A DNA stretch of 36,217 nt from Holophagaceae bacterium (lineage in GTDB: Bacteria > Acidobacteriota > Holophagae > Holophagales > Holophagaceae). The translations under genes and the position numbers were made by a program. The stretch covers positions 1 to 36,217 of the forward strand of contig JANYJQ010000192.1 of the NCBI GenBank assembly GCA_025358435.1, given 5' to 3'. The notes below the pieces were generated by a model that was not told where the DNA came from, did no database searches, and saw only the letters and a program-made list of their open reading frames with translations. Below, piece after piece: positions 14,609-36,172 of the stretch; the stretch's first letter is position 1, and the number at the start of each line of letters is the position of its first letter.

Positions 14609-14820
14609 GAAACACCTCTGAGAACCTCTGCTGGATCCGCATCCACGCTCCTCCCGGGACACTGCCTTGTCAAGTGGATGGCAAGCGTGGCTGGTCGCCG
14701 ATCCCGCAGGTACTTGTAACTCCCGTCTATTTGCTCGCTGAAATCCATGGATAAGGAACGCAGAAACAGGCCGGCCTGAGGCCACCATGGGACACTGGCT
14801 TATTCGTTCCGGAGTCCTCC

Positions 14821-15977
14821 ATGAAGACCCTCTGCCTGCTCTTGGCCCTGCCCGCCCTCACGCTGCTAGCCCAGGCGCCGGATGTGCACCAGCAACTGGC
14901 GAAGGAGATCCTTTCGGAACTCATCTCCATGGATACCACCGGCGAGCATGGCGACACCACCCCCGCCGCCAAGACCATGGCGAAACGGCTGCTCAATGCG
15001 GGCTTTCCCGCGGCGGATATCCAAATTGTGGGACCCGAAGGCAGGATCTGATCCTCGCCCTCACCACGGGCGAAGAGGGTTCCACCTTCTACAACGGCAT
15101 CGAATGGCTGCTCGCGCATCGGCGGGATCTCATCGAGGCCGAATACTGCCTCAACGGCGATGGCGGCGGACCCGTGGCCACCAAGGGCCTGCCCCGTTTT
15201 CGCGCCTTCCAGACCTGCGAAAAGGCGTTCTACACGTTCACGCTGGAGGCCAAGGATTCCGGCGGCCACAGTTCCCTACCCCGGAAGGCCAATCCCATCC
15301 ATGCCGTTGCCGCAGGAATCGCACGCATCGCCGATTACACCTTCCCGGTGGACCTCAACGAGACCACTCGCGCCTTCTTTGCCCGCATGTCCAAGATTGA
15401 AGGAGGCCCGCTCGGCATGGACATGTCGGCGCTGGTGCAGAGTCCCCCGGATTCCACTCCGTGGAGGGCTGGGGTTGAGCGTCTTTCAGAAGATCCCTAT
15501 TGGAACGCCCAGATGCGCACCACCGCCGTGGCGACCCTGGTCAGCGGTGGCCACGCTTCCAATGCCCTGCCGCAAACGGCCAAGGCCAACGTGAATTGCC
15601 GCCTGCTGCCGGGTGAAGACATCCTGGCCGTGAAAGCCAGGCTCGAGTCCCTGGTGAACGACCCGCGCGTCAAAGTGACAATGGAGGGAACACCCCAGAA
15701 GAACCTGGCCTCGCCTTTGCGGCAGGACCTCATGACGGCCCTGGAGAAGACCACGTTGATGGTGTGGTCCGGCTGCCCGGTGATCCCGGCCATGGAGACC
15801 GGCGGCACCGATGGCGCGAAGCTTCGGATAGCGGGCATCCCCACCTATGGGATCTCCGGCGTGCCCATCGACCAGGACGATGTCCGGGCCCACGGCCAGG
15901 ACGAGCGCATCCGGGAAACAAACTACTACGAGGGCTTGCGGGCTTTTGAACTGCTGATCAGGGAACTGGCCAAGTAA
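14821..15977 (+). pseudogene. M20-family metallopeptidase, disrupted by internal deletion/frameshift
   Basis: N-terminus MKTLCLLLALPALTLLAQAPDVHQQLAKEILSELISMDTTGEHGDTTPAAKTMAKRLLNAGFPAADIQIVGPEGRI* in frame 1 (14821..15051) continues in frame 3 as DLILALTTGEEGSTFYNGIEWLL...METGGTDGAKLRIAGIPTYGISG; the segment expected to hold the metal-binding HxDVV and GRGxxDDK motifs is absent. Confidence 0.8.
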
Positions 15978-21486: not shown

Positions 21487-23559
21487 ATGCGCATATCGCC
21501 CCTCATCTTTGCAGTCGTCGCCATGTCCGGACTCCACGCCGATGAAGGCATGTGGACCTTTGACAACATCCCGGCCAAGGTCATCAAGGCCAAGTACGGC
21601 GTCGAGCTGGATGCGGCCTGGCTGAAACGGCTGCAACTGGCCACGCTGCGCTTTCCGGGCGGCACCGGGGCTTTTGTCAGCGCCGACGGCTTGGTGGTGA
21701 CCAACCACCACGTGGGTCGCAGTGCCATCGCCCAGGTATCCACAGCGAAAGCGGATCTGGTGAAGGATGGCTTCGCAGCGGCCTCCCGCGAGCAGGAGAT
21801 AAAAGTACCGGGCCTTGAACTCATGATGCTGGTGTCCATGGAGGATGTGACCGCGCGTGTGAACGGCGCCGTGAAGCCCGGCACGGCGGACAAGGACGCG
21901 CTCACAGCCCGCCGCAACGCCCTGGGCGAGCTTCGCAAAATGGAAGAGGCTAAGACCGGCCTCACCTGCGAACCCGTGACCCTTTACCAGGGCGGCGAGT
22001 ACTGGTTGTACCGGTATCAGAAATTCACCGACGTGCGCCTGGCGGCCGCGCCGGAACTCCAGGTGGCGGCCTTCGGCGGCGATCCGGACAACTACTCCTA
22101 CCCGCGCCACAACCTGGACTTCTCCCTTTTCCGCGTCTACGAAAACGGCAAGCCCTACCGGCCCGAGGCCTTCCTGCCCTTCCAGCCCAAGGGTGCCGCC
22201 ATTGGCGAGCTCACCTTTATTTCGGGCCATCCAGGAACCACCTACCGGCAGCAGACCCACGCTCAGATGGTGTATGCGCGGGACATCGGAATTCCCTTTC
22301 AGTTGAAGTCCATGGAACGCCACAAGAAAGCCCTGCAAGCCCTTGCGGCTTCTTCGCCCGAGGCCCGGCGCCTGGCGGCCGATGCGATCTACGGCATCGA
22401 GAATGGATTCAAGCGGCTGTCGGGCCAGTTGCTGGGATTGGCCAAGCCCGAGAACCTGCACAAGGTGAAGGAAGCTGAGGAAACACTGCAAGCCGCCGTG
22501 GCCAAGGACCCGGCCCAGCAAGCCAGGACCGGCGCGAGCTGGTCGCGCGTGGCGCAAGCCGTGGAGCGCCAGAAGGCCTTGCTAAAGGACTATACGTTTG
22601 TGGGTGCCCGCAGCGTGGCCTTGCTGGGCCACGCCCTGACGCTGGTGCGCCTGCCGGACGAAGCCGCCAAGCCTTCGGATATGCGCCTCACGGAATTTTC
22701 GGACGGAAACCTGAAGGCCACCATGGCCAAGCTGACTTCGCCTCGGCCCATGGAAAAACCGGTGGAGGCCGCGCGTCTTGCGGCTGGATTGCGGGAGGCT
22801 CTGGATGAGCTGGGAGCCGGCCATCCCTTCGTGAAGACCCTGCTGGGCAGCCAGTCGCCCGAGGCCGTGGCCAAGGTCGCGGTCGAGGGCACGAAGCTGG
22901 ACGATCCCGCAGTACGGAAGCAGCTCGCGGACGGCCACAAAGCTGCCATCGAAGCCAGCGCCGATCCCATGATTCTCCTCGCGAAAAAACTCGATCCCCT
23001 TAACCGGGCCATAAGGAAACAGTGGGAGGACGAGGTCACCAGCATATTCAGCGAACAGGGCAGCCACATCGCTGAGGCCCGCTTCAAGGCCTTTGGCAAA
23101 TCGCTGTACCCCGATGCCACCTTCACGCTGCGGCTGGGATTTGGCCCCGTCGCCACCTACGCGAACGGCACCGGCACCAAGGCGCAGCCCTTCACCACCT
23201 TCATGGGGATGTACGACCGCCACCTGGGCTGGGGCGGCAATGCACTGGCTGCGGAAGATGGCGCGTGGACGCTGCCCCAGCGCTGGCTGGACCGGCAGTC
23301 CAAACTCGACCTGAGCACACCCTTCAACTTCATCTATGCCTGCGACACCGTGGGCGGGAACAGCGGCAGCCCGGTGCTGAACGTGAAGGGCGAATTCGTG
23401 GGCATCAACTTTGACAGCGTGTACGAGGGACAGGGCGGCTACTACGTCTACGACGCCGACACCAAACGCGCCGTGGCCACTGATGCCCGCGCCATCCTGG
23501 AGTCTCTGCGGAAGATCATGGATGCCGGCAACCTGGCGGATGAGCTGACCGGAAAATAG
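21487..23559 (+). CDS. S46-family dipeptidyl-peptidase
   Basis: Signal peptide then DEGMWTFDNIPAKVIKAKYGVELDAAWLKRLQLATLRFPGGTGAFVSADGLVVTNHHVGR; CDTVGGNSGSPVLNVKGEFVGINFD. Confidence 0.92.
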   Translation: MRISPLIFAVVAMSGLHADEGMWTFDNIPAKVIKAKYGVELDAAWLKRLQLATLRFPGGTGAFVSADGLVVTNHHVGRSAIAQVSTAKADLVKDGFAAASREQEIKVPGLELMMLVSMEDVTARVNGAVKPGTADKDALTARRNALGELRKMEEAKTGLTCEPVTLYQGGEYWLYRYQKFTDVRLAAAPELQVAAFGGDPDNYSYPRHNLDFSLFRVYENGKPYRPEAFLPFQPKGAAIGELTFISGHPGTTYRQQTHAQMVYARDIGIPFQLKSMERHKKALQALAASSPEARRLAADAIYGIENGFKRLSGQLLGLAKPENLHKVKEAEETLQAAVAKDPAQQARTGASWSRVAQAVERQKALLKDYTFVGARSVALLGHALTLVRLPDEAAKPSDMRLTEFSDGNLKATMAKLTSPRPMEKPVEAARLAAGLREALDELGAGHPFVKTLLGSQSPEAVAKVAVEGTKLDDPAVRKQLADGHKAAIEASADPMILLAKKLDPLNRAIRKQWEDEVTSIFSEQGSHIAEARFKAFGKSLYPDATFTLRLGFGPVATYANGTGTKAQPFTTFMGMYDRHLGWGGNALAAEDGAWTLPQRWLDRQSKLDLSTPFNFIYACDTVGGNSGSPVLNVKGEFVGINFDSVYEGQGGYYVYDADTKRAVATDARAILESLRKIMDAGNLADELTGK

Positions 23560-23583
23560 GCCTATGGTACGTTTCCGCCAGGA

Positions 23584-25479
23584 GTGTTCATGAAGACCGC
23601 AACCTCAACCCCGTTGGCCGAACTCACCTGGAAGGCTGTGGCGGCGGGGGTGGTCCTGGGGGTCGTTTTCGGTGCCGCCAACGCTTACATCGGTTTGCGC
23701 GTGGGCCTCACGGTGGCCGCCTCCATCCCTGCCGCGGTGCTGACCGTAGCCCTCTTCAAATTATTCGGCGCCAAGGGCACGATCCTCGAAGCGAACCTCT
23801 CCCAAACCATCGGCTCGGCTTCCACGTCGCTCGCCACGGGCACCATCTTCACGATTCCAGCGTTGTTCCTTTGGGGCATGGCCCCGCCCTATTTGCAAGT
23901 GGTGGCCTTGTGTTTCCTGGGGGGCGTGCTGGGGCTTTCAGCCATGATTCCCCTGCGGCGCTTGCTGATCGTGGAATCCCACGACGAACTGCCCTATCCC
24001 GAAGGCACCGCCTGCGCGGAAGTCCTGCGGGCTACCGCGGAAGGGTCCAGCGATGGCGTCTGGATCTTCCGTGGCATGGCCGTGGGCGCGGGTGTGAAGC
24101 TGCTGGTGGCCCTGCTGTTCCTCGTGCCATCCGAGATGAGCCTGTCACTCGCCCGTGTGCTTCCCAACGGCTCCCTGGCTCTGGAATTGGCTCCGGCCCT
24201 GCTTGCCGTGGGCTACATCCTGGGCTACCGCCAGTCGGGCGTCATCGTATCCGGCGCCCTCATCTCCTCCATCGTGCTCATCCCCCTCATCACCTTTTTC
24301 GGGTCATCGCTTTCGGCCCCGCTTTATCCCGAGACCACGCGCCTGGTTTCGCAGATGGATGCCGGCGCCATCTGGTCGAAATATGTGCGCTACATCGGCG
24401 CCGGCGCCGTGGCCACGGCGGGCATCCTGACGGTGCTCAAGAATCTCCCCTCCATGGTCGGGGCCTTCGCGGCCATCGCCAAGGGCGTGTCCCGCGATTC
24501 GACAGGGGTGGAAATCGCTCGTTCGGAGAAAGATCGCGACCTGCCGGGGTCGTTCGTGATTGGAGGCATCGCCTTCGTGGTGCTGATCGCGGCCTTCGTG
24601 CCTGGAATCTTCGCGGGCAACATGGGCCTCGTTCCCCGCATGGTCTGTGCGGCCGGAGTCGGTGTTTTCGGCGTGCTCTTCGTGGCCGTGGCGGCCCGCA
24701 TCGTGGGCATCGTGGGGGTTTCCTCCCAGCCGACCTCGGGCATCACCTTGGTGACGCTGCTAGGCGTGGCCTCCATCTTCGCGGCGGCGGGCTGGGTGGA
24801 TGGCAACGCCCGGGCCGCGGTGCTCACGGTGGGCACCATCGTCGCCATCGCGGCCTCCAAGGCCGGAGACATCTCCCAGGATCTGAAGACGGGTTTCCTC
24901 GTAGGCGCCACCCCCGCCAAGCAGCAGTTCGGCCAGCTCATCGGCGCGTCCGTGGCCTGCTGGGCCGTGGCCGCCACGGTGATCCTGATGGGCCATGCCT
25001 TCGGCTTCGGCAGCAAGGAAATCCCCGCGCCCCAGGCCATGTTGATGAAGACCATCATCGAAGGCGTTCTATCCGGCGCTCTGCCCTGGACGCTGGTGCT
25101 TTCCGGCGCGGGACTCTCCCTGGGAGCCATGCTCTGCGGCGTGTCGGGCCTCGCCTTTGCTATCGGCGTCTATCTGCCTCTGTCCTCCATGGCGCCGATC
25201 TACGTGGGCGGCTGCGTGCGGGCCCTATTGGACCGAGGCAGGAAGGACAGCGAGGGCAAGACTGAAAGCGATCCAGGCATTCTCGCCGCATCAGGGCTTG
25301 TGGCGGGAGAAGGCCTCGCGGGCATCCTGGTCGCCGCGCTGGTGGTCAGCGGCGTGGCCCCGAAATCCATGGCCCCACGGATCGTCGGCCTCACTGGTGA
25401 GTTGGGGACCGTGGCGTTAGTATTGGCCGTCTGCGGTTTTCTTTACATGGCCGGGCGGGCAAGGAAGAAAACCGTGTGA
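23584..25479 (+). CDS. OPT-family oligopeptide transporter
   Basis: ELTWKAVAAGVVLGVVFGAANAYIGLRVGLTVAASIPAAVL; ESHDELPYPEGTACAEVLRAT; many transmembrane segments; alternative start at 23590. Confidence 0.93.
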   Translation: MFMKTATSTPLAELTWKAVAAGVVLGVVFGAANAYIGLRVGLTVAASIPAAVLTVALFKLFGAKGTILEANLSQTIGSASTSLATGTIFTIPALFLWGMAPPYLQVVALCFLGGVLGLSAMIPLRRLLIVESHDELPYPEGTACAEVLRATAEGSSDGVWIFRGMAVGAGVKLLVALLFLVPSEMSLSLARVLPNGSLALELAPALLAVGYILGYRQSGVIVSGALISSIVLIPLITFFGSSLSAPLYPETTRLVSQMDAGAIWSKYVRYIGAGAVATAGILTVLKNLPSMVGAFAAIAKGVSRDSTGVEIARSEKDRDLPGSFVIGGIAFVVLIAAFVPGIFAGNMGLVPRMVCAAGVGVFGVLFVAVAARIVGIVGVSSQPTSGITLVTLLGVASIFAAAGWVDGNARAAVLTVGTIVAIAASKAGDISQDLKTGFLVGATPAKQQFGQLIGASVACWAVAATVILMGHAFGFGSKEIPAPQAMLMKTIIEGVLSGALPWTLVLSGAGLSLGAMLCGVSGLAFAIGVYLPLSSMAPIYVGGCVRALLDRGRKDSEGKTESDPGILAASGLVAGEGLAGILVAALVVSGVAPKSMAPRIVGLTGELGTVALVLAVCGFLYMAGRARKKTV

Positions 25480-29453: not shown

Positions 29454-31493
29454 ATGACAAAAATCAAGGCGCTGCCTGCTCTTCGTTCGAACTTCCTATG
29501 GATTGGGGCAAGGGTCGCGATGCTCCTCCTGACCGCCAACATGCTCGTGCTTCATGCGGAGCAGGATCGGGACAAAGAAAAGGAGAAGGAGAAGCGCGGG
29601 AAGCCGGAAGCCAATGATCAAGCTCCAAGTCCTCCGCCCAAGCGCGAGTCGAAGCCTGAACAAGCTCCAACACCCACACCCCCCCATGAACAGAGGAGAG
29701 AAAAAGATCCGGCCCCCTCGCCCCGTCTGGACCGAAAGCGCGAATCTGCTCCCGAACCACGTCCTGAGTCCAATCGTCGGGATTCCGCTCCTCAGCCCAA
29801 GCCAGTTCTGAGACGCGAGCCGCCTCCGCCGGATCCCGCACCCCGCCCAGACCCAAAACCGGAATTCAAAGGCAATCCAAAAACTGAAACGCCTAACCAG
29901 CGCCAGCCGTTGGATGCAGAACGAAGACGCGACAACAATCCGGCCCAACCAACTCCCACTCCTGGACCCAAGGACCCCGGTCCCATTACTCGGGAGATTC
30001 CCAGGCCTTTCGGGCCGTCTGGACGCCGGGATTCCAACCAGCGGCGTGAATCAAACAAGGATTCCCATCCAATAACTCCCACGCCTGGACGCAACGAAAA
30101 CCTGCGTCAGGATCCGCGACAGGACACCAGTGCGATGGGGCACCCTGCTTCTGATCGCTCCCGGCCGTCTGGAAGTCCGGGCGACAGGCGGGGCCCAGAG
30201 CTGCACGTGGTCAGCACCCGCAACGGCGGGGAGATCCGGCGAACCCAGACCGGAGCGATCCGCGAAGTCCACACACCAGGCGGGGCCGTGATCCAGCATT
30301 CTCCAAGCGGGGTCCGGCACATCGAGATGGCTCGTCCGGGTGGTCGGGTCATCGTAGCCAACGCCACAGGCCGAACCGGGTACATACAGAAACCGCTGGT
30401 CTCGCACGGCCGCACCTTTGTACAGCGCACCTACATCCGGAATGGGATTGTGGACGCCAGGCTTTACCGGCCATGGTCCTACGGTGGCAGGGAGTATCAC
30501 ATCTACACGCCCAACCATTACTATCGGCCCACGTTCTACAACTGGGTCTACACACCTTGGGCCCGCCCGGTCAGCTACCGCTGGGGTTGGTATTCCCGCC
30601 CATGGTACGGGTATTACGGAGGATATTTCAGGCCTTACCCCACCTATGCGAGTCCCTCCTTCTGGCTGGCCGACTTTCTGATCGCAACCACCCTCGAGGT
30701 GGCCTATCTGGCCCAGAATAGCTCCAGCAGCGCTCCTCCGGTGAGGTACAACTCCTCGACCGCCCTGACCCCGGAAGTCAAACAGGTCATCGCGGACGAA
30801 GTCCGGCGGCAGATGGATCAGGCGCAAGCAGATCGGGCAGCTTCGCAGGACACTGGGCAGGTTTTTGCACCACCTCCGATCTTCTCGGATAACGGCCCCC
30901 GCGTGTTTCTGGTGTCCAGCAGCCTGATGGGTTATTCCGGAAACCAGGAATGCCCTTTGGTGGAAGGGGATGTTCTTCAAATCACCCAGACGCCTTCCCC
31001 GAGCTCTGAATGGGCGGAAGTCAAGGTGCTGGCCAGCCGTGGATCGAGTTGCCCGAAAGGCAGCTACATTTCGGTGAGAACTTCGGATCTGCAGGAAATG
31101 CAGAACAACATGCAGGCGACCATTGACCAAGGAATGGCCAAACTCCAGGCCGAACAAGGCAGGGATGGCATCCCTTCGCTTCCGGCTCAAGCTTTGGGAG
31201 CGGAAGATACACCCTACACTGACGATGTCCGGCCTGACACGAATGCCCAGGATGACCTTTCCATGGCGGTGAGGGAAGCCAACCGATCGGAACAGGACAT
31301 CATCAACCAAGGGGGGCAGGAACCCGTTGAATCAGGTTCGGATGCAACCATTTCCTTGGGGATGACCCCGTCTCAAGTGGAGAACGTTTTGGGCCGGCCC
31401 AAAAACACAGTCGATCTCGGGTCGAAAAAAATCTACGTCTACCAGAACCTGAAAATCACCTTCCTGAATGGCCGGGTGAGCGACGTTCAATAA
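29454..31493 (+). CDS. Large exported protein: Pro/Arg/Lys-rich low-complexity N-terminus, Tyr/Trp-rich middle, SmpA/OmlA-like C-terminal segment
   Basis: N-terminal hydrophobic segment; PSPPPKRESKPEQAPTPTPP low complexity; YNWVYTPWARPVSYRWGWYSRPWYGYYGGYFRPYP; C-terminal ISLGMTPSQVENVLGRPKNTVDLGSKKIYVYQNLKITFLNGRVSDVQ. Confidence 0.75.
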   Translation: MTKIKALPALRSNFLWIGARVAMLLLTANMLVLHAEQDRDKEKEKEKRGKPEANDQAPSPPPKRESKPEQAPTPTPPHEQRREKDPAPSPRLDRKRESAPEPRPESNRRDSAPQPKPVLRREPPPPDPAPRPDPKPEFKGNPKTETPNQRQPLDAERRRDNNPAQPTPTPGPKDPGPITREIPRPFGPSGRRDSNQRRESNKDSHPITPTPGRNENLRQDPRQDTSAMGHPASDRSRPSGSPGDRRGPELHVVSTRNGGEIRRTQTGAIREVHTPGGAVIQHSPSGVRHIEMARPGGRVIVANATGRTGYIQKPLVSHGRTFVQRTYIRNGIVDARLYRPWSYGGREYHIYTPNHYYRPTFYNWVYTPWARPVSYRWGWYSRPWYGYYGGYFRPYPTYASPSFWLADFLIATTLEVAYLAQNSSSSAPPVRYNSSTALTPEVKQVIADEVRRQMDQAQADRAASQDTGQVFAPPPIFSDNGPRVFLVSSSLMGYSGNQECPLVEGDVLQITQTPSPSSEWAEVKVLASRGSSCPKGSYISVRTSDLQEMQNNMQATIDQGMAKLQAEQGRDGIPSLPAQALGAEDTPYTDDVRPDTNAQDDLSMAVREANRSEQDIINQGGQEPVESGSDATISLGMTPSQVENVLGRPKNTVDLGSKKIYVYQNLKITFLNGRVSDVQ

Positions 31494-31513: not shown

Positions 31514-33412
31514 CTAACGATCTGCGTCCATCATCCGCAGGGGCCTTGGCTGGGTCATGGCTTCCAGGCTGAGCGCTTCGTCGAGCTGGGCGATATTGAG
31601 GTATCCCTTTTCCAGGATGATTTCCCGCACGGAAGCCCCTGTTTCGAGGGCGATCTTGGCGACTTCGGTGGCGCGCTTGTAGCCGATGGCAGGCATCACG
31701 GCGGTGACGATGCCGATGCTATGTTCCACCAGGTCGCGGCAGCGTTCGCGGTTCGCGGTGATACCCGTGATGCACTTGGTGGTGAGCACGTTCACGGCTG
31801 CGGTCAGCATGCGCAGGCTGGTGGCCAGGCTGTAGGCCAGGATGGGTTCCATCACATTGAGCTGGAGCTGGCCAGCTTCGGCGGCCAGTGTGATGGTCAA
31901 GTCGTTGCCGATGACCGAGAAGGCCACCTGGTTGACCACCTCGGGGATCACTGGGTTCACCTTGCCGGGCATGATGCTGCTGCCGGGCTGCATGGCGGGC
32001 AGGTTGATCTCTCCGAAGCCGCAGCGTGGGCCGCTGCTCAGCAGGCGCAAATCATTGCACATCTTGCTGAGCTTCACCGCGGCGCGCTTCACGACGCCCG
32101 AGAACATCACGAAGGCGCCGGTGTCCGGAGTCGCTTCGACAAGATTCTCGGCAAGCACGATCTCCAGGCCGGTATTCCGGCGGAGTTCCTCCACCACGAT
32201 CTTGGGGTAGCGCGGATCGGCGCAAATGCCCGTGCCGATGGCCGTTCCGCCCATGTTCACTTCCAGGAAAAGGCGGGCGGTCTCCCTCAACCGCTCGATA
32301 TCCTCGCCGGTGGTGATGGCATAGGCTTCGAATTCCTGGCCCAGGGTCATGGGTACCGCGTCCTGCAATTGAGTGCGGCCCATCTTGATGACATCGCTGA
32401 ATTCCCGTCCTTTGGCATGGAGCGCGGTCTTCAGCTTCTCCATGGCTTCCAGCAATGTCTTTAGCATGAAGATGGTCGAAAGCCGCAAGGCGGTCGGGTA
32501 TACATCGTTGGTGCTCTGGCCCAGATTGACATGGTCATTGGGGTGGCACTTGGCGTAATCGCCGCGGCTCTCCCCCATCAACTCCAGGGCGCGATTGGCG
32601 ATCACTTCATTGGCGTTCATGTTGGTGGAAGTGCCCGCACCGCCCTGCACCATGTCCGTGGGGAAATGGCCATGCCAGTGGCCGTCAATGATTTCGCGGC
32701 AGGCAGCATCAATGGCCTTCGCAATGACGGGGTCCAGCAGGCCCAAGCGGGCGTTGGCCCTGGCCGCGGCCTGCTTGACCAGGGCGAGCGCCCTCACCAT
32801 GGCGGGAAAGTGGCTGACGGGTGTACCCGTGATGGGAAAATTCTGAACGGCCCTTAACGTCTGCACGCCGAACAGGGCATCGCTGGGCACTTCCATGGGT
32901 CCGATGAGATCCGACTCGGCCCGGGTCGAGCCGCTGGCATAGGCCTGCTCGCGGCCCACCACGGAACTGCCCGTATAAACCAGGCGGCGATGGAGCACGT
33001 TCGCAACTTTGCTGAGAATGGCGATGGCGGCACCGCCATCCTGGCCCAAACGCTCCAGCATCAAATCGCGGTCGAGTTCCAATAGCACCGCATCGGCGTG
33101 CACCTGGGCCGAAGCTGTGTGAGCGGTCGCAGTAAGAAAGGCTTGTTCTCCAGCAGCGTCTCCGGGCCCCAACAGGATGAGCGGCTCAGGACCATCGCCA
33201 TTGTCCCGGGTGATCTCGACACTGCCCTCGGCGAGGACGAAGCAAGCCCGGCGGACATCTCCCTGTTGAAACAGGTAGGTCCCCGCCGCGATTTCACGAA
33301 TCTTCGTGGCACTGGCTACCAGATCCAAATGGGATTCCGACAGCCCAGAGAAAATCTCCGAACGACGCAGAATGGATTTCACCGCTTCCATGACAGACCT
33401 CCCGCCGGGCAC
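31514..33412 (-). CDS. aspA: Aspartate ammonia-lyase with N-terminal cyclic-nucleotide-binding-like domain (alternative start 33391)
   Basis: N-term ILRRSEIFSGLSESHLDLVASATKIREIAAGTYLFQQGDVRRACFVLAEGSVEITRDNG (cNMP-binding fold); then aspartase: GGAGTSTNMNANEVIANRALELMG, HPNDHVNLGQSTNDVYPTALRL, signature GSSIMPGKVNPVIPEVVNQV. Confidence 0.93.
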   Translation of the reverse strand: MPGGRSVMEAVKSILRRSEIFSGLSESHLDLVASATKIREIAAGTYLFQQGDVRRACFVLAEGSVEITRDNGDGPEPLILLGPGDAAGEQAFLTATAHTASAQVHADAVLLELDRDLMLERLGQDGGAAIAILSKVANVLHRRLVYTGSSVVGREQAYASGSTRAESDLIGPMEVPSDALFGVQTLRAVQNFPITGTPVSHFPAMVRALALVKQAAARANARLGLLDPVIAKAIDAACREIIDGHWHGHFPTDMVQGGAGTSTNMNANEVIANRALELMGESRGDYAKCHPNDHVNLGQSTNDVYPTALRLSTIFMLKTLLEAMEKLKTALHAKGREFSDVIKMGRTQLQDAVPMTLGQEFEAYAITTGEDIERLRETARLFLEVNMGGTAIGTGICADPRYPKIVVEELRRNTGLEIVLAENLVEATPDTGAFVMFSGVVKRAAVKLSKMCNDLRLLSSGPRCGFGEINLPAMQPGSSIMPGKVNPVIPEVVNQVAFSVIGNDLTITLAAEAGQLQLNVMEPILAYSLATSLRMLTAAVNVLTTKCITGITANRERCRDLVEHSIGIVTAVMPAIGYKRATEVAKIALETGASVREIILEKGYLNIAQLDEALSLEAMTQPRPLRMMDADR

Positions 33413-33522: not shown

Positions 33523-33632
33523 GACACGCCTGCGCTGGAGCCATGGGCAGGAGTACATTCGAGAATGTCGTGAGTGTCGGGCCAGGCTCAGCCATCGGAG
33601 CCAGGAGATGCCGGCAGAATCCTGGAGCCTCT

Positions 33633-35360
33633 ATGAAGACCTTCGATTTCAAGATTGATCCCCTGACCGGCGAGGAATACTGCGAGGTCTACCTGACAGG
33701 CCGGCAGCTCCTGAATGATCCACACCTGAACAAGGCCTCGGCCTTCACCGAAGAGGAACGTCTCAGCCTGGGCCTGGACGGCCTGGTGAGCTCGGGCGTT
33801 TCCACCATGGAAATCCAGTTGGACCGGGCCCTGGAATCCTTCCGCCGGAAACCCGACGACCTTGAACGCTACCTGTACCTGATCGGCCTCCAGGACCGCA
33901 GTGAGCCGCTGTTCTACCGCCTGCTGGTGGACAATCTTATCGAGATGGTGCCCATCATCTACACCCCCACCGTGGGCCAGGCCTGTCTGCAGATGAGCCA
34001 CATCCAACGCCGGTTCCGCGGCGTCTACATCACGCCGGACAACATCGCCAACATCGATCAGATCTTCCAGGGCATCTCGCTGCCCCACGTCTACTTGATC
34101 GTGGTGACGGATGGCGAGCGCATCCTGGGCCTGGGCGACTTGGGTTCCGACGGCATGGGCATCCCCGTGGGCAAGGTGAGCCTCTACGTCGCCGCCGGTG
34201 GCCTCCACCCCGCGATTTGTCTACCCATCAGCCTGGATGTGGGCACGAATACCGAGCGTCTGTTGAACGACCCGCTCTACCTGGGCTACCGGCACCGCCG
34301 TCTTGAAGGCGAAGCCTACGATGAGATCGTGGAAAAATTCGTGTTGGGCGTGCGGCGTAATTTCCCCGATGCGCTGCTGCAATGGGAGGACTTCGCGAAG
34401 CACAAAGCCTTCAACAATCTTGAACGCTACCGTGACCGCATCCTTTCCTTCAACGATGACATCCAGGGCACCGGCGCCACGGCTCTGGCCGCGCTGATGA
34501 CTGCGATGCGCATCAAGGGCGAGTCCTTCAAGGACCAGCGCTTCCTCATCGTGGGCATGGGCCAGGCAGGCACCGGCGTCGGCCTGAACATCCGCGCCCA
34601 GTTGAAAGAAGAGGGACTGAACGAAGAGGAAATCCGGGCGCGCATCTTCGCGGTGGAACAGCAGGGACTATTGGTTGAAGGCGATCCCAAATTGGAGGCA
34701 CCGCAGATTCCCTTCGCCCAGAGCCAGAACAACCTAGGTGGATGGAAGCCAACGGAATCCGGCTTCTTTGCGCTGGCCGATGTCGTCCACAACGCCAAGC
34801 CCACGGTGCTGGTCGGCGTCACCGCCCAGCGCGGACTCTTCAGCGAAGCTATCCTGGCCGAAGTCGCCCGGAATACCGAAAGACCCGTGATCCTGGCGCT
34901 TTCCAACCCAACCTCAAGGACCGAATGCACCCCCGGAGAAGTCGCCCGCGCCACCGATGGAAGGGGACTCATCGCCACGGGAAGCCCCTTCGATCCCATC
35001 GAATGGAAGGGCGCCACCCTGCGTGTCTCCCAGTGCAACAATTTGTACGTCTTCCCCGGCATGGGCCTAGGCGCCCTGGTATCCAAGGCCACAAAGATCA
35101 CCGACGGGATGTTCCTGGCAGCCACCCGCGCCATCAGCGCCATGGTCACCCCGCCACAGGAATCCGAAGGGATGCTGCTGCCGCCCATGCAGGACATCCG
35201 CGAAGTGTCGGTGGCGGTCGCGGTGGCGGTGGGCCGCGAAGCCCGGGACCACGGCTTGGCCCGGCGCGTGGATGACATGACACTAGAAAAGCTGGTCCGC
35301 AAAGCCCAGTGGAATCCAGCCTACGCGCCCTACCGGCCAGGCCCGAATTCGCACAGATGA
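33633..35360 (+). CDS. maeA: NAD-dependent malic enzyme
   Basis: MKTFDFKIDPLTGEEYCEVYLTGRQLLNDPHLNKASAFTEEER; MVPIIYTPTVGQACLQMSHIQRRFRGVYIT; FNDDIQGTGATALAALMTAMRI; ILALSNPTSRTECTPGEVARATDGRGLIATGSPF. Confidence 0.93.
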   Translation: MKTFDFKIDPLTGEEYCEVYLTGRQLLNDPHLNKASAFTEEERLSLGLDGLVSSGVSTMEIQLDRALESFRRKPDDLERYLYLIGLQDRSEPLFYRLLVDNLIEMVPIIYTPTVGQACLQMSHIQRRFRGVYITPDNIANIDQIFQGISLPHVYLIVVTDGERILGLGDLGSDGMGIPVGKVSLYVAAGGLHPAICLPISLDVGTNTERLLNDPLYLGYRHRRLEGEAYDEIVEKFVLGVRRNFPDALLQWEDFAKHKAFNNLERYRDRILSFNDDIQGTGATALAALMTAMRIKGESFKDQRFLIVGMGQAGTGVGLNIRAQLKEEGLNEEEIRARIFAVEQQGLLVEGDPKLEAPQIPFAQSQNNLGGWKPTESGFFALADVVHNAKPTVLVGVTAQRGLFSEAILAEVARNTERPVILALSNPTSRTECTPGEVARATDGRGLIATGSPFDPIEWKGATLRVSQCNNLYVFPGMGLGALVSKATKITDGMFLAATRAISAMVTPPQESEGMLLPPMQDIREVSVAVAVAVGREARDHGLARRVDDMTLEKLVRKAQWNPAYAPYRPGPNSHR

Positions 35361-35650
35361 GCCTCGAAGTGGAGGTCGAAGGCATGAAAGCCGAAGTGGC
35401 CGCCCTGAAAGCGGCCAGTCACTGACGGCACCATCCATGAATTCACGGTTCATGGCTGGCCTAGCCCGAAGTGTGACTTTCGTCCCAAGCCCTCTGGGAT
35501 ATCGTTGAAAACATTGAAAACCTTGATGCGCCGCCCCAGGCAGGCCTGTTCGGGCCTTCAAAACCGTATTCAAATCTACGGATGCGGCGTTTTTAACCAT
35601 CTGATCGTGATACTTGTGGATGGATGCTGCAATCTTCTAGGGAGTGGACA

Positions 35651-36172
35651 ATGGCCAAAGCATTGGATTACGCGAGCCTCAGCCTGATGGATGCCCTGGA
35701 CTTGGCGATTCTGGTGGAAGAAGAAGCCCAGGAGCGATATGAGGAATTCGCACATCAGCTGACCACCCACCACACGCTTGAGGCCGCCAAATTCTTCCTA
35801 TTGATGGAGCAGAATGAAGCTCTGCACAGGGTCATCCTGGGCACACGCCGGAAGAAGCTGTTCGGCACCCTGCCTCGCAACGTGACCCGGGAGATGCTGT
35901 GGGATGTCGAAGCCCCGGAGTACGACGGAGCCCGCGCCTTCATGTCGCTGCGGCAAGCGCTCGAAGTGGTGATGGCTGCCGAATCCAAGGCCTATGAATT
36001 TTATGACACGAACCTGAAGCACATAACGGATCCGGAAGTCAGAACCCTGTTTGAAGAACTGCGGGAAGAAGAAGGCGAGCATCAGGCGGCCGTCCGGGCT
36101 GAAATGGAAAAGCTCCCGCCCGGCCCCGACCCCGATCCCGAAGACTACGCCGACGAACCCAACGCGATGTGA
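35651..36172 (+). CDS. Rubrerythrin/ferritin-like diiron protein
   Basis: LDLAILVEEEAQERYEEFAHQL...FFLLMEQNEALHRVIL...ALEVVMAAESKAYEFYDTNLKHITDPEVRTLFEELREEEGEHQAAV; RBS gggagtggacaATG. Confidence 0.85.
   Translation: MAKALDYASLSLMDALDLAILVEEEAQERYEEFAHQLTTHHTLEAAKFFLLMEQNEALHRVILGTRRKKLFGTLPRNVTREMLWDVEAPEYDGARAFMSLRQALEVVMAAESKAYEFYDTNLKHITDPEVRTLFEELREEEGEHQAAVRAEMEKLPPGPDPDPEDYADEPNAM

Follow-up and report, generated by a model that had tools for sequence, protein, structure and literature searches.

What does a sensor domain of the CRP type do on an aspartase, and what could it bind when the Arg that normally contacts the phosphate is missing from its phosphate-binding cassette? These questions are raised by one gene in the 36,217-nucleotide stretch of Holophagaceae DNA that was analyzed (the window). 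According to the original prediction, this gene encodes a cyclic-nucleotide-binding-like (CNB) domain fused to a complete aspartase, with a His in place of the cassette Arg.

Architecture of the fusion and identity of the lyase

The fusion is encoded on the (-) strand at 31514..33391 (625 aa plus stop). The open reading frame itself spans 31514..33412 (-) and gives 632 aa, but the start is likely the internal ATG at 33391, which is preceded by GGGAGG and falls in the start region shared by the orthologues; residue numbers below are those of the 625-aa protein. A single frame holds the Pfam domains cNMP_binding (PF00027, 58.8 bits against a gathering cut-off of 27.5), Lyase_1 (322.5 bits), and FumaraseC_C (67.9 bits), so the predicted fusion is borne out at the level of domains. 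The CNB (cNMP-binding, CRP-like) domain, delimited by PF00027, AlphaFold2, and Foldseek, comprises residues 1-144 (32960..33391, (-)) and includes a C-helix at residues 119-144. It is followed by a linker (residues 142-153; 32933..32968, (-)), predicted to be flexible with pLDDT < 50, and by an aspartase of the class II fumarase/aspartase superfamily at residues 157-618 (31538..32923, (-); PRK12273 and Foldseek). The AlphaFold2 model of the whole fusion protein (pLDDT 85) contains the CNB, the disordered linker, and the lyase. Structure prediction had been suggested as a check on the sensor domain, and the isolated CNB folds confidently (AlphaFold2 pLDDT 94.8), with GlxR, Mtb CRP, PKA, and PKG as its closest structures in Foldseek.

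The lyase scores 732.5 bits against the NCBIfam model PRK12273 (aspartate ammonia-lyase, AspA; cut-off 510) and 470.5 bits against fumC_II, which is under that model's own cut-off of 664.75; a class II fumarase identity is ruled out by these family scores. The TIGR00839 aspA equivalog cut-off of 681.2 is not reached, the score of 676.6 bits being short by 4.6. The SS-loop GSSIMPGKVNP, which was already noted in the original prediction, is formed by residues 470-480, and S471, S472, M474, K477, and N479 are invariant across both a Holophagae set (n = 22) and a multi-phylum set (n = 25). The closest structure to the lyase in Foldseek is the aspartase 6wng_A (TM 0.93, 61% identity over 463 columns). 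By its sequence features, the lyase is a complete aspartase, predicted to deaminate aspartate. Aspartase splits aspartate into fumarate and ammonia.

Across ~40 flanked fusion loci, no conserved gene neighbor or operon partner was found. In the window, a malic enzyme of the NAD type (33543-35360, (+); PRK13529, 722.7 bits) is divergent from the fusion, an arrangement seen elsewhere only at two loci of the same genus (L006 and L007); since it is absent from the other flanked loci, this pairing is only local color. The same window holds an S46 dipeptidyl-peptidase-like protein beside an OPT oligopeptide transporter (21487-25479, (+)), which form a peptide-use cluster together with an M20 peptidase (14787-15977). 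The peptidases, the OPT transporter, and the malic enzyme would fit catabolism of peptide aspartate via fumarate and malate, again as local color. Two further genes were noted in the window: one for a rubrerythrin/ferritin-like protein (35624-36172, (+)), which weakly resembles MbfA and the ferritin-like cargo of encapsulins at scores below cut-offs, and one for a proline- and charge-rich 679-aa protein (29454-31493, (+)), which has no Pfam or NCBIfam match and is accompanied by a long antisense ORF at 30051-31310.

The putative binding site of the CNB domain

The segment GEQAFLTATAHTASAQ (residues 81-96; 33104..33151, (-)) is aligned by phmmer with the phosphate-binding cassette of PKG and PKA, which puts H91 (codon CAC; 33119..33121, (-)) on the phosphate-binding Arg. 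The proposed exchange of this Arg for His is confirmed by the alignment and extends far beyond the source genome. His is found in 22/22 Holophagae fusions and in all 15 further acidobacterial fusions, and the 25 members of the multi-phylum set comprise 22 with His and 3 with Tyr at position 91. Among the 89 readable of 91 pooled rows (L161 and L167, both His in a separate alignment, are outside the count), 86 have His, 3 have Tyr, and none has the Arg typical of canonical cAMP/cGMP-binding CNBs; many of these rows are close relatives, and the 25-member set gives the fairer count. The control CNBs, 36 domains from 13 genomes of one phylum that were aligned with a profile of the fused CNBs, have Arg in 22 cases, Tyr in 5, Thr in 4, His in 2, and other residues in 3 (Fisher p 2.5e-11 for fused vs control). 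These alignments support the cassette His as a hallmark of the subfamily and not a quirk of one genome, and it would fit a different ligand or binding mode. The Glu of the cassette is retained as E82 (33146..33148, (-)), at the position that contacts ribose in cAMP sensors, in 24/25 members of the multi-phylum set.

A second change, absent from the original prediction, is found at a position that would face the cassette. R47, in the beta2-beta3 loop (33251..33253, (-)), is equivalent to G169 of PKA RIalpha and aligns to the PKA/PKG Gly without gaps. In place of the Gly or Ala of canonical CNBs, it is Arg in 24/25 members of the multi-phylum set, and Arg occurs at this position in 0/35 control CNBs, which mostly have Gly or Ala. 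The combination of R47 with H91 is likewise absent from all 36 other CNBs of related genomes. A published structural comparison describes a CH-pi interaction between G169 of PKA RIalpha and R209, the cassette Arg, and holds that any bulkier side chain at this place would collide with the cassette Ala (PMC2275311). We infer that the facing Gly/Arg pair of canonical CNBs is here an Arg/His pair, the Arg having in effect switched sides. With both phosphate-site residues altered, cAMP is unlikely to bind in its canonical pose.

In an alternative that we regard as unlikely, the ligand would still be cAMP or cGMP, with R47 replacing the cassette Arg as phosphate ligand in an ordinary cyclic-nucleotide-regulated enzyme with a rearranged site. 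The retention of E82 and of the C-helix Arg speaks for it, as does the R209I variant of PKA RIalpha, with which little function is lost according to work cited in PMC5359514. The clash expected from any residue larger than Gly or Ala at the R47 position (PMC2275311) speaks against it. Genes for class III nucleotidyl cyclases, a further point in its favor, are present in 28/30 fusion-bearing vs 20/30 fusion-less genomes (Fisher p 0.02, a value that ignores relatedness), but the association is weak because the comparison is phylogenetically unbalanced. Conversely, the lack of a cyclic-nucleotide synthase is untenable as an argument against cAMP, since these genomes often encode class III cyclases.

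The mean identity within the multi-phylum set is ~30% for the CNB and 64% for the lyase. Only nine of the 133 CNB columns, namely F41, G56, R47, E82, R136, V58, G81, H91, and L40, are conserved in at least 22 of the 25 members, and R136, the C-helix Arg (32984..32986, (-)), is kept in 24/25. As R47, E82, H91, and R136 are retained while the domain around them diverges to ~30% identity, the putative pocket appears to be its constrained part. The original prediction had taken the His to mean either a different ligand or a ligand-independent structural role. The former fits the subfamily-wide His; the latter is less supported, because the pocket residues are the best conserved in a fast-changing domain.

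CRP-type CNBs dimerize via the C-helix. This counts in favor of the main rival reading, in which a ligand-free CNB would serve as a dimerization, stability, or docking module of the tetramer and an internal contact between H91 and R47 would keep the empty cassette folded. Such a contact could be structural alone, and the lack of a conserved partner gene would agree with a module of this kind. Near-invariant E82 and R136 in a domain that elsewhere retains ~30% identity speak against an empty pocket, however, and a ligand-free scaffold is disfavored by this conservation; we consider it quite improbable.

Distribution and evolutionary history of the fusion

A single copy of the fusion is present in the source genome. 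Orthologues of the same genus share 92-93% identity with it, those elsewhere in the family 66-82%, and those of a second family of the class 53-55%; in the rest of the phylum, Acidobacteriota, the fusion is patchy and occurs in at least 8 further families. A search with a profile of the CNB alone found the fusion in 37/297 genomes, with fused proteins above 124 bits and all other CNBs at or below 119 bits. The one exception to this split is a stand-alone CNB ORF of 177 aa in genome G235 (L196:3849-4379, (+)), which scores 124.3 bits and has the same Arg/His pair. No lyase is found within 8 kb of it, and G235 also encodes an unfused aspartase-like lyase; this CNB may be what is left of a fusion that was split or has decayed. 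In three other free-standing CNBs selected with the profile, the pair is the canonical Gly/Arg.

Outside the phylum, full-length fusions are found, among the matches listed, in Bacteroidota, Melioribacteraceae (Ignavibacteriota), Caldithrix (Calditrichota), Gemmatimonadota, Chloroflexota, Myxococcota, Verrucomicrobiota (the isolate Chthoniobacter flavus), and one gammaproteobacterial MAG. The phylogenetic spread, which the original prediction had proposed to examine, covers at least 8 bacterial phyla, a breadth that the prediction had not recognized, although most of the multi-phylum records are MAGs, in which single taxon labels are uncertain. The same data dispose of a technical explanation. 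The source genome is fragmented (76% complete, 211 contigs), and a product of annotation, frameshift, or assembly could be suspected for this reason. The fusion is in frame, however, in the single-contig genomes G007, G034, G039, and G243, as well as in the isolate Chthoniobacter flavus and many independent assemblies, by which an artefact or frameshift is ruled out; its probability is negligible.

In a CNB tree of 60 rows, built from 139 columns only, the fused CNBs fall on one side of a branch with support 94/88, separated from 35 controls. Distances between CNBs and between lyases are correlated in the multi-phylum set (Spearman 0.64, Mantel p 2e-4). The lyase tree, a quick one with a long outgroup branch, does not group the fused proteins in one clade: five changes of state are found, at least three of them forced, and a single clade of fused aspartases is rejected by the AU test (p 6.5e-8). 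Counted as events on this tree, gains alone require 8 and a fused state at the root 6. Aspartases that lack the sensor, from Pseudomonadota, Bacteroidota, and others, are nested among the fused ones. Since the CNBs form one clade and the lyases do not, while the divergence of the two parts is correlated, the simplest joint reading of the trees suggests one old fusion followed by several losses of the sensor.

The nesting of unfused relatives within fused ones also indicates that the sensor is apparently dispensable for the aspartase, which is a further point against a scaffold that the tetramer would need. In the source family, four genomes (G017, G280, G304, and G415) have an unfused aspartase of >700 bits and no fused copy, a pattern that would fit the same job for both forms. 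The one of these unfused proteins that was placed in the lyase tree, L032 of G017, groups with Bacteroidota, which suggests that the fusion was replaced via horizontal transfer. Elsewhere in the phylum, some genomes (G216, G267, and G291) have both a fused and an unfused form.

Proposed function and comparison with known systems

We favor, as the more probable account of the protein, a putative ligand-gated aspartase, in which the N-terminal CRP-like domain would sense a small molecule through a non-canonical anion site and tune the enzyme. The ligand would bind between the cassette and the beta2-beta3 loop. With the E82/R136 side of the pocket kept, it would close the C-helix in the manner of other CNBs; this closure would be relayed via the linker to the aspartase tetramer and change its activity, although the model, with its low-confidence linker, shows no path for such coupling. 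What binds is probably a metabolite of anionic or nucleotide/nucleoside-like character, held in a non-canonical pose, and not cAMP in its standard one. In trypanosomatid PKA the same Arg is lost, the fold is kept, and nucleosides are bound (PMC10959531).

More tentatively, and with less than even confidence, the fusions of at least 8 phyla may be seen as an ancient class of aspartases gated by an orphan CNB, in which the anion-binding Arg moved from the cassette to the loop and the metabolite sensed is neither cAMP nor cGMP; the unfused aspartases of Pseudomonas, Bacteroidota, and Bradyrhizobium would then have shed the sensor from fused ancestors. The fusion looks like an old and overlooked control of nitrogen and carbon metabolism by a signal molecule. 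If this is true, a textbook housekeeping enzyme would be directly gated by a signal in many uncultured and environmental bacteria, and the new signal would sit at the junction of aspartate, fumarate, and ammonia. CNB domains are mostly taken as cAMP/cGMP switches. For PKA-type CNBs, the trypanosomatid PKA is described as the first departure from this rule, and the authors of that work anticipate that more ligands will be found (PMC10959531). A conserved CNB subfamily that spans many phyla and is attached to one enzyme with an easy spectrophotometric assay (fumarate, 240 nm) offers an uncommon opportunity to de-orphan a bacterial CNB and find a new allosteric signal. A description of a CNB-aspartase fusion was not found in the open-access literature, most subscription-journal papers being outside this search; the architecture is visible to domain databases and has probably been deposited many times.

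With known aspartases (PRK12273/AspA; PDB 6wng, 1jsw, 1j3u) the protein shares the full lyase, the GSSIMPGKVNP SS-loop, and the GRTQLQDAVPM motif, but it carries an N-terminal sensor domain that ordinary aspartases lack. With the CNBs of the CRP/FNR and PKA/PKG families (GlxR, Mtb CRP, PKA RIalpha, PKG I) it shares the fold, the GE..(L/F)L.....(S/T) frame, the Glu, and the C-helix Arg. It differs from them in the exchange of the cassette Arg for His and of the beta2-beta3 Gly/Ala for Arg, and in its effector, which is a metabolic lyase instead of a DNA-binding domain, a kinase, or a channel. The trypanosomatid PKAR, which is cAMP-independent and binds purine nucleosides, resembles the fusion in that the cassette Arg is lost, its CNB being still ligand-gated; there the Arg is replaced by Thr/Asn and the cassette Ala by Glu, whereas the fusion has His together with a new loop Arg (PMC10959531).

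The NCBIfam CNB model that matches most members is that of family 2B encapsulins (NF041163; 25/25), but this family is a nanocompartment shell protein, and no CNB was detectable in its acidobacterial matches. Mycobacterial Pat is regulated by cAMP. Like this acetyltransferase (PDB 4onu/4oll, NF058543) and the EAL enzyme Bd1971 (6hq3), the fusion places a CNB on a bacterial enzyme, although the enzyme is a different one from Pat and the Pat CNB is only distantly similar to the fused CNB. Enzymes regulated by CNBs were thus already known, and what is new here is an aspartase that carries a CNB with a conserved, non-canonical putative binding site.
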